Shown: positions 24,636 through 46,544 of the stretch, piece after piece
Layout: each line of letters opens with the position of its first letter
Position numbering within the stretch: position 1 is the stretch's first letter
NCBI RefSeq assembly: GCF_005877005.1
Contig: NZ_SSNH01000005.1
Location: forward strand, 186,001-250,000
Source: Sinomonas susongensis
GTDB taxonomy: Bacteria; Actinomycetota; Actinomycetes; Actinomycetales; Micrococcaceae
Length of the DNA stretch: 64,000 bases
Reading direction: 5' to 3'
Position numbers and translations under genes: made by a program
Notes under the pieces: model-generated
The model's database searches: none
Seen by the model: the letters and a program-made list of their open reading frames with translations, nothing else
Told to the model about the DNA's origin: nothing

Positions 24636-24651
24636 TCGAACATGCGTTCGA
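24636..24651. promoter_or_regulatory. Perfect LexA (SOS) box with no clear target gene
   Basis: TCGAACATGCGTTCGA matches the actinobacterial LexA consensus TCGAAC-N4-GTTCGA at every fixed position. It lies 25 bp after the preceding gene and 200 bp before the nitrilase-family gene. A 62-codon open frame starts at ATG 24653, but its Arg/Pro/Ser-rich sequence does not look like a conserved protein. The 240-bp spacer (24612-24851) otherwise shows nothing recognisable. Confidence 0.8.
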
Positions 24652-32386: not shown

Positions 32387-32423
32387 GGTCATGGGGGAAC
32401 AAACCACCACGTCAGAGAGTTGA

Positions 32424-32456
32424 TCCTAGTGTCGCCGAGGATAGGCGGCACTAGGA
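32424..32456. promoter_or_regulatory. 13-bp inverted repeat overlapping the clgR promoter
   Basis: TCCTAGTGTCGCC and GGCGGCACTAGGA flank a 7-nt spacer, with a single G-T pair. The right arm runs into TAGGAT (32452-32457), a possible -10 hexamer. It could be an operator for autoregulation or a hairpin ending the pncC transcript. Confidence 0.55.
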
Positions 32457-32515
32457 TGGATCACACGGAAGCCCGGGAAACCGGGCCCCGCCCAACAAGG
32501 AGCGCACTGATACAC

Positions 32516-32941
32516 ATGGTCAAGCAGCCCGTAACCGTCAATGGCGTAGTCCGCTGGCGTGATGTGGGCTTGGCTGAAATCGCCCCTGAAGAGAAGAAGG
32601 AGCGCAAGATGGTAGTTCTGCGTCATGAGATTGGAGACGTCCTTCGCGACGTCCGCCAGCGTCAGGGCCGTACGCTCCGTGAAGTCTCCCACAACGCCCG
32701 GGTTTCACTTGGATACCTGAGCGAGGTGGAGCGGGGCCAGAAGGAAGCATCTTCCGAGCTTCTCTCGTCGATTTGCTCGGCATTGGACGTTCCGCTGTCG
32801 GCCATGCTCCGCGAGGTGAGCGACCGCGTCGCCGTCGCCGAGGGAGTCTCCGTGCCGGACACGGTTCCCCAGGAGTTCTCCCAGCGCTACGGACGCGACC
32901 TCACCGAAGAGCTCGGCATCGAACTCAGCGGATCACACTAG
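32516..32941 (+). CDS. clgR: XRE-family regulator ClgR
   Basis: ClgR activates clp protease and stress genes in actinobacteria. The HTH domain reads [60 protein letters not shown], the canonical ClgR sequence, followed by a short C-terminal tail. Two starts are plausible. ATG 32516 gives 141 residues with a 31-residue extension; ATG 32609 gives the classical [10 protein letters not shown] start and has a far better ribosome site (AAGGAG at 32597-32602). I keep the longer form because its extension is open and gene-like, without certainty. Confidence 0.9.
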
Positions 32942-33549: not shown

Positions 33550-33771
33550 ATGCGGCACAGCGACTTCTGGCGGCTCATGGAGGACGAGTTCGGCGCGGGC
33601 TATGCGCGGGTCCTCGCGTCCACGCTCGTGCTGACGTCGATGGGAGGACGCACAGCTGCCGAGGCCCTCAAGGCCGGTCAGAACCCCCGGACCGTGTGGC
33701 TCGCCGTGTGCGACATGCAGGACGTCCCAGCCGAAAGGCGTCTGGGCAAGGACCGGCCGCTCAAGGACTGA
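33550..33771 (+). CDS. DUF3046 family protein
   Basis: This 73-residue protein (RHSDFWRLMEDEFGAGYARVLASTLVLTSMGGRTAAEAL...VWLAVCDMQDVPAERRLG) belongs to DUF3046, a family found almost only in actinobacteria just upstream of recA (Rv2738c in M. tuberculosis). No function is known. It is small, soluble and mostly helical. The ATG at 33550 lies 54 bp from the divergent marR start; both promoters must fit there. Confidence 0.88.
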   Translation: MRHSDFWRLMEDEFGAGYARVLASTLVLTSMGGRTAAEALKAGQNPRTVWLAVCDMQDVPAERRLGKDRPLKD

Positions 33772-33820: not shown

Positions 33821-33836
33821 TCGAAGGTGTGTTCGG
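33821..33836. promoter_or_regulatory. LexA (SOS) box upstream of recA
   Basis: TCGAAGGTGTGTTCGG differs from TCGAAC-N4-GTTCGA at two fixed positions. Its GTGTTCGG half is like that in the mycobacterial recA box. A TATCCT hexamer at 33844-33849 lies just downstream, so LexA would cover the -35 region of that promoter. Confidence 0.75.
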
Positions 33837-33882
33837 TCCGGCGTATCCTCGATGTCGAGGAGATTCACGGTTTCCCGCCGGG

Positions 33883-33891
33883 TTATCCACA
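33883..33891 (+). promoter_or_regulatory. Consensus DnaA box (TTATCCACA) in recA upstream region
   Basis: An exact TTATCCACA occurs between the two putative recA promoters. One isolated consensus box may be chance, titration site, or a DnaA regulatory site. Confidence 0.4.
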
Positions 33892-33913
33892 TAGGCCAGT
33901 GCGAGTCGCTGGA

Positions 33914-33936
33914 CTGTCGGTGGCCCTCGGTAGCGT
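33914..33936 (+). promoter_or_regulatory. RecA-NDp (PafBC-type) promoter of recA
   Basis: CTGTCGGTG (33914-33922), exactly 8 nt, then TAGCGT (33931-33936) fits the LexA-independent damage-inducible promoter consensus tTGTCRgtg-N8-TAnnnT, with one mismatch at the first weak base. The recA ATG is 40 nt downstream. In mycobacteria this motif is read with the PafBC activator. Confidence 0.75.
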
Positions 33937-33976: not shown

Positions 33977-35023
33977 ATGGCGGCAGCGCCAGATCGTGAA
34001 AAGGCCCTTGAGGCGGCTCTCGCGCAAATCGACAAGCAGTTCGGCAAGGGCTCGATCATGCGGCTCGGCGACGACACGCGCGCCCCCATCGAGGTCATTC
34101 CGACGGGCTCGATCGCGCTCGACGTCGCCCTCGGCATCGGCGGTCTCCCGCGCGGCCGTGTCGTGGAGATCTACGGCCCTGAGTCCTCGGGCAAGACGAC
34201 GGTCGCCCTGCACGCGGTGGCCAATGCCCAGCGCAACGGCGGCATCGCGGCCTTCATTGACGCAGAGCACGCGCTCGACCCCGAATATGCCGCGAAGCTC
34301 GGCGTCGACACCGACGCGCTCCTCGTCTCTCAGCCGGACACGGGTGAGCAGGCCCTCGAGATCATGGACATGCTGGTCGGTTCAGGCTCGATCGACATCG
34401 TCGTGATCGACTCCGTTGCTGCCCTGGTGCCCAGGGCGGAAATCGAGGGCGAGATGGGCGACAGCCATGTCGGCCTCCAGGCCCGGCTCATGAGCCAGGC
34501 CCTCCGCAAGGTCACGGGTCGCCTCAACCAGACGAAGACGACGGCGATCTTCATCAACCAGCTGCGTGAGAAGATCGGCGTCTTCTTCGGGTCCCCCGAA
34601 ACGACGACAGGCGGTAAGGCGCTCAAGTTCTACGCCTCGGTCCGCATCGACGTGCGTCGCGTCCAGACCCTCAAGGAGGGTGCCGATTCGGTCGGCAACC
34701 GGACGAAGGCGAAGATCGTCAAGAACAAGATGGCTCCGCCCTTCAAGCAGGCAGAGTTCGACATCATCTACGGCCAGGGGATCTCGCGTGAGGGCGGGAT
34801 CATCGACATGGGCGTCGAGCACGGCATTATCAAGAAGTCGGGCTCGTGGTTCACGTACGACGGTGACCAGCTCGGCCAGGGCATGGAGAATTCGCGCCGG
34901 TTCCTTCGGGACAACCCGGAACTTGCCGACGAGCTCGAACGCCTCATCAAGGAGAAGCTCGGGGTGGGCGTCAGCAAGCCAGCCGAGGAGCAGCCGCGGC
35001 TCAAGGCTGTCGACGGCGAGTAG
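33977..35023 (+). CDS. recA: Recombinase RecA
   Basis: RecA forms filaments on single-stranded DNA, catalyses strand exchange and stimulates LexA self-cleavage. The 348 residues have Walker A GPESSGKT at about 66, [23 protein letters not shown], and the L2/Walker-adjacent [22 protein letters not shown]. No intein is present. The ATG has ACCGGAGG at 33963-33970. Upstream sit both a LexA box and a RecA-NDp promoter. recX follows 3 nt after the stop. Confidence 0.99.
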
Positions 35024-35026
35024 CCG

Positions 35027-35569
35027 TTGACTGCAACCGAAGCGGGTAGGTTCGCGACCGGGGAGGCCGAGCCCGAAGACCAGGAGGCCGACCCAGAGTC
35101 GGTTGCCCGGGCGATTCTCCTCCGGCAACTCACGCTTGGTCCTAGGAGCAGGCACCAACTCGCCGTGAAGCTCCGAGAGCGTCACGTTCCGGAGGAGGTG
35201 GCCGAGGCGGTGCTCGGGCGATTCGAGGAGGTCGGCCTCGTCAACGACGCTGCCTTCGCCGAGATGTGGGTGCGGAGCCGATTCGCGGCGAAAAGCCTGT
35301 CGAAGTCGGCTCTTCGCCGGGAGCTCGCCTCGAAGGGCATAGAGGGCGTGGTTGCGGAGGAGGCGCTTTCCGAGCTCAGCGACGACGCCGAGATGGAGGC
35401 TGCGCGGGAACTCGTGGCACGTCGGATCCGACCTTTCGCCCGGGAGGATCCTGCCGCCCGGGACCGGGAACTGCGTCGGCTCGTGGGGATGCTGGCCCGG
35501 AAGGGTCACCCCCCGGGGAGGGCGTTCCGGGCTGCGGCAGAGGTCATCGACGCTGAGAATACGCAGTGA
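35027..35569 (+). CDS. recX: Regulatory protein RecX
   Basis: RecX inhibits RecA filament growth. The 180-residue protein is built of three-helix RecX repeats: AILLRQLTLGPRSRHQLAVKLRERHVPEEVAEAVLGRFEEVGLVNDAAFAEMWVRSR and the following SALRRELASKGIEGVVAEEAL and LRRLVGMLARKGHPPGRAFRAAAEV. The TTG start at 35027 is only 3 nt after recA and gives about 25 extra acidic residues before the conserved region, typical of the family. Translational coupling to recA is likely. Confidence 0.93.
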   Translation: MTATEAGRFATGEAEPEDQEADPESVARAILLRQLTLGPRSRHQLAVKLRERHVPEEVAEAVLGRFEEVGLVNDAAFAEMWVRSRFAAKSLSKSALRRELASKGIEGVVAEEALSELSDDAEMEAARELVARRIRPFAREDPAARDRELRRLVGMLARKGHPPGRAFRAAAEVIDAENTQ

Positions 35570-45230: not shown

Positions 45231-45290
45231 CTGACCGGGGGTAGCTCAGACCGACCGGGGGCAGGTCAGACCGACCGGAGGTAGCTCAGA
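45231..45290. repeat. 20-bp tandem repeat between dinG and lexA 3' ends
   Basis: Three 20-bp copies of the form CCGACCGGGGGTAGCTCAGA lie between the convergent dinG and lexA stops, touching the last lexA codons. Confidence 0.75.
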
Positions 45291-45993
45291 CCGAGCGGAG
45301 CACCGAGACGACGCGGCCCATGATGGTGGCGTGGTCGCCGAGGATGGGCTCGTAGCGGGTGTTCTGGGGGAGCAGCCACGTGTGGCCGTCACGCTGCCGG
45401 AACGTCTTGACCGTCGCCTCGTCGTCGAGGAGGGCGGCAACGATGTCTCCGTTGTCCGCGTTGTTCTGGCGCCGCACGACGACCCAGTCGCCGTCGCAGA
45501 TCGCGGCGTCGACCATCGAATCTCCCCGGACGCGGAGCATGAAGAGCTCGCCGTAGCCCACGAGCTGCCGGGGGAGCGGCATGACGTCCTCGACGACCTG
45601 GTCGGCGAGGATCGGGCCGCCCGCGGCGATGCGTCCGACGAGCGGGACCATCGCCGTGTCCGCCGCGCTCGCCATATCGTCCAGGGGAATGCCGCCGATG
45701 CCGAGGACAGGGGCCGTGCGCTCGGCATCCATGGTGAGCGGACCCTCGTCGAGGCTCAGCGGCATGAGGACCTCCATCGCCCGCGGGCGCTTCGGGTCGC
45801 GGCGCAGGTATCCGAGCTTCTCTAGCTGGGCGAGCTGATGCGTCACACTCGACAGGCTCGCGAGGCCCACTGTGTCGCCGATCTCGCGCATCGACGGAGG
45901 GTAGCCCTTCGTCTGGACTGAGCGCTGGATCGTCTCGAGGATCTTCCGCTGGCGGACCGTGAGTCCCTTGGCGGCTCTGGCCACTCCTGCCAT
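45286..45993 (-). CDS. lexA: SOS repressor LexA
   Basis: LexA represses SOS genes and is inactivated by RecA-stimulated self-cleavage. The 235 residues have an N-terminal winged helix ([36 protein letters not shown]), the Ala124-Gly125 cleavage site in VGRIAAGGP, and the Ser159 (GDSM) and Lys196 (TVKTF) dyad. I chose ATG 45993 ([10 protein letters not shown]), preceded by GGAAAGAGGG; the longer open frame to 46089 runs through the operator region. Two LexA-box-like palindromes lie in the 194-bp divergent region, so autoregulation is expected. Confidence 0.97.
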
Positions 45994-46081
45994 GCGTGCC
46001 CTCTTTCCAAGTCTGGTGGTTCTTATTTTGTCGGTGCCCGTCTGGATGCTGGTTCCACCGTAGGGGACACAGCGGCACCTT

Positions 46082-46097
46082 TCAAACATGTGTTCTA
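46082..46097. promoter_or_regulatory. LexA box, lexA-proximal
   Basis: TCAAACATGTGTTCTA matches TCGAAC-N4-GTTCGA with two changes. It lies 89 bp upstream of lexA and is the likely autoregulatory site. Confidence 0.65.
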
Positions 46098-46147
46098 GCG
46101 AGTCTGGACATCATTCGTCGAGAAGTGCTAAAAGTGTTCTGGATGGT

Positions 46148-46163
46148 TCGAAGACATGTTCGA
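46148..46163. promoter_or_regulatory. LexA box, LysM-gene-proximal
   Basis: TCGAAGACATGTTCGA matches the consensus with one change. It is centred about 32 bp upstream of the GTG of the LysM gene and would control it directly. Confidence 0.78.
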
Positions 46164-46187: not shown

Positions 46188-46544
46188 GTGGCACACGCAT
46201 TCGCAGTCCCGTTCGGAACGGCACCGGCCCAGCGCACCCGCCTGCGGCTGACGCGCCGCGGCCGGCTCGTGCTCATCGCGCTCCCGGCATTCCTCGCCTC
46301 GGTGCTCCTGCTCGCGGTCCTGAGCGGACTCATCGCGCCGGCGCACGCTGGCGATTCGCCGGCTTCGGTGACGCACACGACGCAGGTCACGCTCCAGGAG
46401 GGGCAGTCGCTCTGGACGGTCGCCTCGCAGTACGCTCCCGACCGTGACCCGCGCGTCGTCATCGGAGAGATCGTCGAGCTCAACAACCTCGACTCCACAA
46501 AGGTCCTTCCGGGGCAGCAGATCCAGGTGCCGACCGCCGGTTGA
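46188..46544 (+). CDS. LysM-domain membrane protein, probable SOS-induced division inhibitor
   Basis: The 118-residue protein has a basic N-terminus, one membrane segment (about residues 28-53, GRLVLIALPAFLASVLLLAVLSGLIA) and one extracellular LysM domain (VTLQEGQSLWTVASQYAPDRDPRVVIGEIVELNNL...LPGQQIQVP). The GTG has GAGGAGG 7 nt upstream. Divergence from lexA and the shared LexA boxes match the position and layout of YneA in Bacillus and Rv2719c in Mycobacterium, which halt division or act on the wall after DNA damage. The role here is inferred from that context. Confidence 0.85.
   Translation: MAHAFAVPFGTAPAQRTRLRLTRRGRLVLIALPAFLASVLLLAVLSGLIAPAHAGDSPASVTHTTQVTLQEGQSLWTVASQYAPDRDPRVVIGEIVELNNLDSTKVLPGQQIQVPTAG

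Follow-up and report, generated by a model that had tools for sequence, protein, structure and literature searches.

A DnaA-box-like element conserved between predicted LexA and PafBC promoters at recA in Micrococcaceae and other actinobacteria

What controls recA in a genome of the Micrococcaceae? In mycobacteria, recA is under the dual control of LexA and PafBC (PMC5656591, PMC8223512). PafBC is described as working by sigma adaptation and as being activated by single-stranded DNA (PMC11804915); it is a fused protein in Arthrobacter aurescens (PMC6789036, PMC8223512). RecA-NDp promoters have been described in Streptomyces at recA and SCO6735 (PMC5087735; for RecA-NDp see also PMC9411070). 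A first-pass annotation proposed that a LexA box and a RecA-NDp promoter stand in tandem before recA of Sinomonas susongensis and that the dual control of mycobacteria operates there. We examined this proposal in the window, meaning the whole stretch of 64,000 nucleotides that was analysed, in the remainder of the genome, and in the recA regions of other actinobacteria.

Both elements lie where they had been reported (Table 1). The LexA-like box TCGAAGGTGTGTTCGG agrees with TCGAACnnnnGTTCGA at 10 of 12 fixed positions. The box CTGTCGGTG, followed by N8 and TAGCGT, departs from the consensus tTGTCRgtg-8-TAnnnT only at the weak first position and conforms to the promoter pattern; 40 nt separate the end of this motif from the recA ATG at 33977, which is preceded by the Shine-Dalgarno sequence ggaggtgg. 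Two features had been overlooked. The TCGAAG of the LexA box is exactly 17 bp upstream of TATCCT, and thus the box covers a predicted sigma-70-type promoter, P2. In addition, a perfect TTATCCACA lies between P2 and the RecA-NDp promoter, P1. Upstream of recA are an HTH regulator, which we take to be ClgR-like, a MarR-type gene, and a DUF3046 gene, and recX lies downstream. The nearest named RecA is that of Sinomonas albida, at 97%, which fits a Micrococcaceae genome.

Table 1. Features of the recA and lexA regions, in window coordinates
Feature	Position	Strand	Basis or remark
HTH regulator	32420..32941	+	PF01381
DUF3046 gene, directly upstream of the recA control region	33550..33771	+	PF11248 (scanned from 33571); start from window sequence
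LexA (SOS) box TCGAAGGTGTGTTCGG	33821..33836	+	its TCGAAG placed as P2 -35
P2 -10 TATCCT (predicted)	33844..33849	+	window sequence; LexA-anchored profile
DnaA-box-like nonamer TTATCCACA	33883..33891	+	22 nt upstream of NDp box; about -60 to -52 of predicted P1 start
RecA-NDp / PafBC box CTGTCGGTG (P1)	33914..33922	+	pattern match; conservation
P1 -10 TAGCGT	33931..33936	+	window sequence; alignment/profile
recA	33977..35023	+	TIGR02012, 567 bits
recX, downstream of recA	35027..35569	+	PF02631, PF21982
lexA reading frame	45286..46089	-	TIGR00498 above cut-off, PF01726
NDp-like site TTGTCGGTG-N8-GATGCT, lexA/LysM intergenic	46028..46050	+	NDp pattern scan
LexA-like box TCAAACATGTGTTCTA	46082..46097	+	LexA pattern scan
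LexA-like box TCGAACATGTCTTCGA	46148..46163	-	LexA pattern scan
LysM-domain protein gene, divergent from lexA	46188..46544	+	PF01476

Could these motifs have arisen by chance? The LexA-type 16-mer with at most three mismatches occurs 7 times in the window against 0.51 expected, a count in which one palindromic place appears twice, once per strand. For the NDp pattern with at most two mismatches there are 5 occurrences against 1.23 expected; because 1 of 100 shuffled sequences also reaches 5, this is only weakly beyond chance in the window alone. This weak excess, and the departure of both sites from their consensus, would suit an explanation in which at least one of the two motifs arose by chance and has no function in this genome. 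However, among 157 actinobacterial recA upstream regions the LexA box (at most two mismatches) is kept in 143 and the RecA-NDp motif (a score of at least 11 of 13.5) in 144, against 1.0 and 3.2 expected from shuffled sequences, counts that are not independent because the genomes are related. Three other Sinomonas-like genomes (G006, G037, and L100) keep both motifs. Given this conservation, we regard chance as scarcely credible.

The 157 regions comprised those of 61 genomes of the family, 56 of 80 named loci, and 40 class genomes that we chose from the rows listed among 280 with recA. The named loci left out were L151, which was cut, L156-L160, and L162-L179; these are mostly from other phyla, although L159 (Nitriliruptoraceae) and L171 (Actinomarina) are among them. 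We retained L116, which bears the title of a Proteobacteria MAG, and set L329 aside on account of a frame that failed to fit. Group labels such as Mycobacteriales-like and Streptosporangiales-like are our own assignments. Family f25, judged by RecA likeness, we take to be probably Streptomyces; its eight genomes carry the full NDp motif at recA, and a LexA box with at most two mismatches is present in only 2 of the 8 regions. The f32 genomes are probably acI-like, judging from their likeness to L145. An earlier reading of f32 as Bifidobacteriaceae without NDp was rejected, since alignment revealed NDp-like boxes at f32 recA; an NDp motif scoring at least 11 was absent at recA in all 3 Bifidobacteriaceae loci. 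Seven of the 13 f32 genomes (L333, L334, L336, L337, L338, L341, and L343) carry one more NDp motif in front of recA, and its -10 directly adjoins the LexA box; such a layout looks like that of a promoter activated by PafBC and at the same time blocked by LexA.

The LexA side of the arrangement was examined with a profile anchored on the box in 109 of 117 regions (at most two mismatches). At a distance of 17 bp downstream of TCGAAn, the fixed letters T, A, and T of a -10 TAnnnT occur in 60, 53, and 52% of them, respectively. A TCGAACnnnnGTTCGA-type palindrome overlapping a promoter and kept at recA is accompanied in this genome by lexA itself; the true lexA start is probably inside the reading frame, and the LexA domain runs from residue 41. 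Between lexA and the LysM gene (46028-46163) are an NDp-like site, with GATGCT in place of TAnnnT, and two LexA-like boxes, a layout that resembles the mycobacterial lexA-Rv2719c region. Elsewhere in the window, a perfect LexA-type palindrome, TCGAACATGCGTTCGA, lies at 24636-24651; a gene for a carbon-nitrogen hydrolase (24843) follows after about 190 nt. A genome-wide LexA scan with the loose consensus TCGAACnnnnGTTCGA and at most two mismatches was unspecific, with 479 matches per strand against 241 for the reversed pattern, and therefore no LexA regulon was drawn.

For the RecA-NDp pattern with at most one mismatch, 16 matches were found in the whole genome, against 1 for the reversed pattern. 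Ten are placed at genes; they lie not only before recA but also before sbcD, dnaB, and clpX, with one in the lexA/LysM intergenic region. The others are at genes for HsdM, an anti-phage 6A-MBL protein, a glyoxalase-like protein, and two small unknown genes. Four matches (L007, L008, L012, and L018) read as inside coding sequence, and two (L010 and L011) are in neither set. The motif before the HsdM gene is perfect (G000:C12:381285-381307, L005), and the one before the 6A-MBL gene, which encodes an MBL-fold protein (NF058524), lies at G000:C12:415254-415276 (L009); together they suggest that phage defence may be damage inducible in this genome. At sbcD and the two small unknown genes (L004, L013, and L019) the ATG follows the NDp -10 at 6 nt, and these messages are probably leaderless.

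Which regulator would read P1? The genome encodes a fused PafBC, which has two WYL domains, at G000:C12:80866-82833, and a match to it was found in 61 of 61 family genomes, some of them split, the weakest having E values of 3e-5 (G002) and 4e-6 (G043). It could be argued that the reader of P1 is instead the ClgR-like HTH regulator whose gene lies upstream of recA, since recognition of the mycobacterial P1 region by ClgR has been reported (PMC5656591). However, P1 induction in Mycobacterium smegmatis is accounted for by PafBC in the same report, PafB binds the -26 motif (PMC11804915), and the fused PafBC is present here; we consider a ClgR-read P1 very unlikely. With both motifs kept across family and class and both LexA and PafBC encoded, the sequences support the dual control of recA that had been proposed.

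Dual LexA/PafBC promoters at recA are in kind already known, from mycobacteria and, for NDp, from Streptomyces. The DnaA-box-like third element, conserved between the two promoters, appears to be novel, and the interest of this locus would lie there rather than in the dual control first proposed. A search of open-access papers found no report of such an element. In the window, TTATCCACA matches the classical DnaA box TTRTNCACA at 9 of 9 positions and is the DnaA box of Escherichia coli (PMC8203912). When 114 of 117 regions were aligned on the NDp box, the column profile displayed a block TT(A/G)TCCACA at -31 to -22, with about 20 little-conserved columns on each side. At 20 to 25 nt upstream of the NDp box, TTRTNCACA occurs with at most one mismatch in 84 of the 157 regions (0.40 expected) and perfectly in 45 (0.01 expected).

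Among 115 regions, a third box with at most one mismatch to TTRTNCACA was found in the expected window on the strand of the gene in 66, against 5 on the other strand and 0.5 in shuffled sequences. When two mismatches were allowed and the stretch 18 to 27 nt from the NDp box was searched, all 76 boxes fell at distances of 21 to 24 nt. Boxes were also found in windows shifted by -10, -20, -30, and +12, in 5, 11, 15, and 1 of the 115 regions, respectively; the counts in the three upstream windows exceed those of shuffled sequences, so some genomes have further boxes of this type upstream. The distance from third box to NDp box is unchanged where the gap between LexA box and NDp is 57, 125, or 168 nt (G009, G015, and G045). 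The notion of a constant LexA-NDp spacing near 79 to 80 was dropped, as this spacing ranged, in the 48 regions as parsed, between 34 and 168, whereas in most the box-NDp distance was 21 to 24. In several genomes CACAG follows the P2 -10, a possible second copy of the box close to the start of P2; it did not stand out in the LexA-anchored profile, and we make no claim for it.

The distribution of the third box is uneven. In our own family, 50 of 66 regions have it at 20 to 25 nt with at most one mismatch and 30 of 66 have it perfect, while four have it at 30 to 35 nt, about one turn further away. All 8 f25 regions carry a perfect TTRTCCACA 22 to 23 nt upstream of NDp, and the remaining groups have the box in 26 of 54 regions. 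At 20 to 25 nt it was found in 0 of 16 Mycobacteriales-like, 0 of 10 Streptosporangiales-like, and 0 of 3 Bifidobacteriaceae recA regions; one Rhodococcus (L119) has TCCACA 32 nt from NDp. The absence from the first two of these groups indicates that PafBC control can do without the third box. The extent of the nonamer varies as well, being full in many own-family regions and in the 8 f25 regions and reduced in f32 to a core, (T/C)CCAC(A/G). The proximal NDp scored in 10 of the 13 f32 genomes and fell below the score in the other 3; in 9 of the 10 with a scoring motif, the core precedes it by 22 to 23 nt.

Is the third box confined to recA? For the 12 NDp sites examined in our own genome, recA alone has it in place; dnaB, with its NDp at C3:24741, has two TTGTCCACA boxes upstream (G000:C3:24833 and 24923) at a spacing unlike that at recA. 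Across the class the idea of a recA-only element was rejected. Of 296 class genomes, 186 contain the composite TCCACA-N22-25-TGTCNG-N10-TAnnnT and, by our reading of the counts, 5 the reversed pattern; besides recA, the composite precedes radA-like, DEAD-box helicase, exonuclease V gamma/RecC-like, C-C lyase, and DUF222/HNH genes. One f10 genome (G062) has two composites, one of them before a DUF222 gene, and its recA is without the box. The presence of one module at genes unrelated to each other speaks against an origin by descent alone. TCCACA was at the composite distance in 49 of 410 strict NDp sites from 20 genomes and in none of the reversed control, a share (12%) that is no general rate because the genomes were chosen partly for their many sites. 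The ATG at the composites away from recA is mostly 6 to 9 nt after the -10, which suggests leaderless messages. The radA-like genes were named from sequence, with Pfam giving KaiC ATPase, LapB zinc ribbon, and ChlI; the RecC-like fragment has PF04257 above and TIGR01450 below the cut-off; DUF222 is above the Pfam cut-off in 3 of 5 matching scanned proteins and slightly below it in 2; and 1 of the 10 scanned proteins downstream of a composite gave no family. At two sites (L308 and L320, in G296) a TCCACAG, a LexA-type box, and an NDp motif lie within about 50 bp, and the frame after L308 is without a Pfam family.

On these sequences, the best reading of the third site is an upstream modulator site of the PafBC promoter, and we put binding by DnaA at about even. 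The region that we read as this genome's dnaA-dnaN contains TTGTCCACA twice together with near-matches. Position 5 of the 76 boxes is C in 86%, G in 9%, A in 3%, and T in 3%, and CAC is invariant; since the E. coli DnaA consensus tolerates variation at position 5, this pattern fits DnaA, as do the perfect TTRTNCACA boxes of our own family and f25. However, the TTR half is absent in f32, several Microbacteriaceae, and other named loci, as well as before the radA-like and helicase genes, which have tcgTCCACAG, and such sites would fit a strict DnaA box poorly. The box may thus be functional and yet read by something else, either a class-I activator, which a site near -55 would suit, or the polymerase alpha-CTD acting with PafBC. 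We consider a reader other than DnaA a substantial possibility, somewhat less probable than DnaA itself.

Alternatively, the third box and the NDp box might form a direct repeat, the former being another site for PafBC. TTGTC can begin both this box and TTGTCRGTG, and the two are about 31 bp apart from start to start, or about three helical turns. The NDp box and the upstream box are not conserved at the same positions, however: TGTC hardly varies in the former, whereas the latter always has CAC and shows A and G in similar proportions at position 3. Moreover, TTGTCCACA or TTTTCCACA is present in two recA regions from Bifidobacterium in which no NDp box reached the score. These two observations make a second PafBC site improbable, and in the PafBC-polymerase complex the HTH of PafB is on the -26 motif and that of PafC on sigma (PMC11804915).

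We therefore return to a modulator site as the preferred reading and propose the following model. P2, with TCGAAG as its -35 and TATCCT as its -10, would lie under the LexA box and be freed once RecA on single-stranded DNA triggers LexA self-cleavage. P1 would be read by the housekeeping polymerase together with PafBC activated by single-stranded DNA, through sigma adaptation as in mycobacteria. TTATCCACA, two helical turns upstream of the PafBC box, is predicted to fall in the zone of class-I activators and the alpha-CTD, and DnaA bound there would modulate P1, most likely as an activator, coupling RecA supply to replication. As a whole, this explanation, with tandem promoters under LexA and PafBC and with DnaA modulating the PafBC promoter, seems to us likely. 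Its extension is more tentative, and we hold it a little short of even: many actinomycete lineages may have composite PafBC promoters, at recA, some repair genes, and DUF222/HNH genes, with DnaA two turns upstream, so that RecA supply would integrate SOS derepression, sensing of single-stranded DNA, and replication state, and mycobacteria may lack or have lost this input at recA.

By these results, control of recA by both LexA and PafBC, known from mycobacteria, would also hold in Micrococcaceae and, judged by sequence, in much of the class. The third element would give the PafBC response an upstream input, linked to replication or of another kind, that is invisible at mycobacterial recA. It also yields a testable prediction for Streptomyces, where an initial search in S. 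venezuelae suggested that the PafBC motif was not conserved (PMC9380542).

Compared with the known systems, the locus is closest to the P2/P1 promoters of mycobacterial recA, with which it shares the order (LexA promoter distal, PafBC promoter proximal), the consensus of P1, and the regulators (PMC5656591, PMC8223512). It differs in that PafBC is one fused protein here and in the DnaA-box-like element upstream of P1, which the Mycobacteriales-like regions lack in this place. The RecA-NDp promoters of Streptomyces have the same NDp motif at recA (PMC5087735); the account consulted makes no mention of an upstream box, whereas the f25 regions carry one. At E. coli uvrB, LexA and DnaA boxes likewise occur in one multi-promoter region of a repair gene (PMC6015884), a precedent for DnaA acting together with LexA on repair genes. 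In that region DnaA is a repressor, and at one promoter it is in competition with LexA, whereas here a single box stands at a fixed distance from the PafBC promoter.
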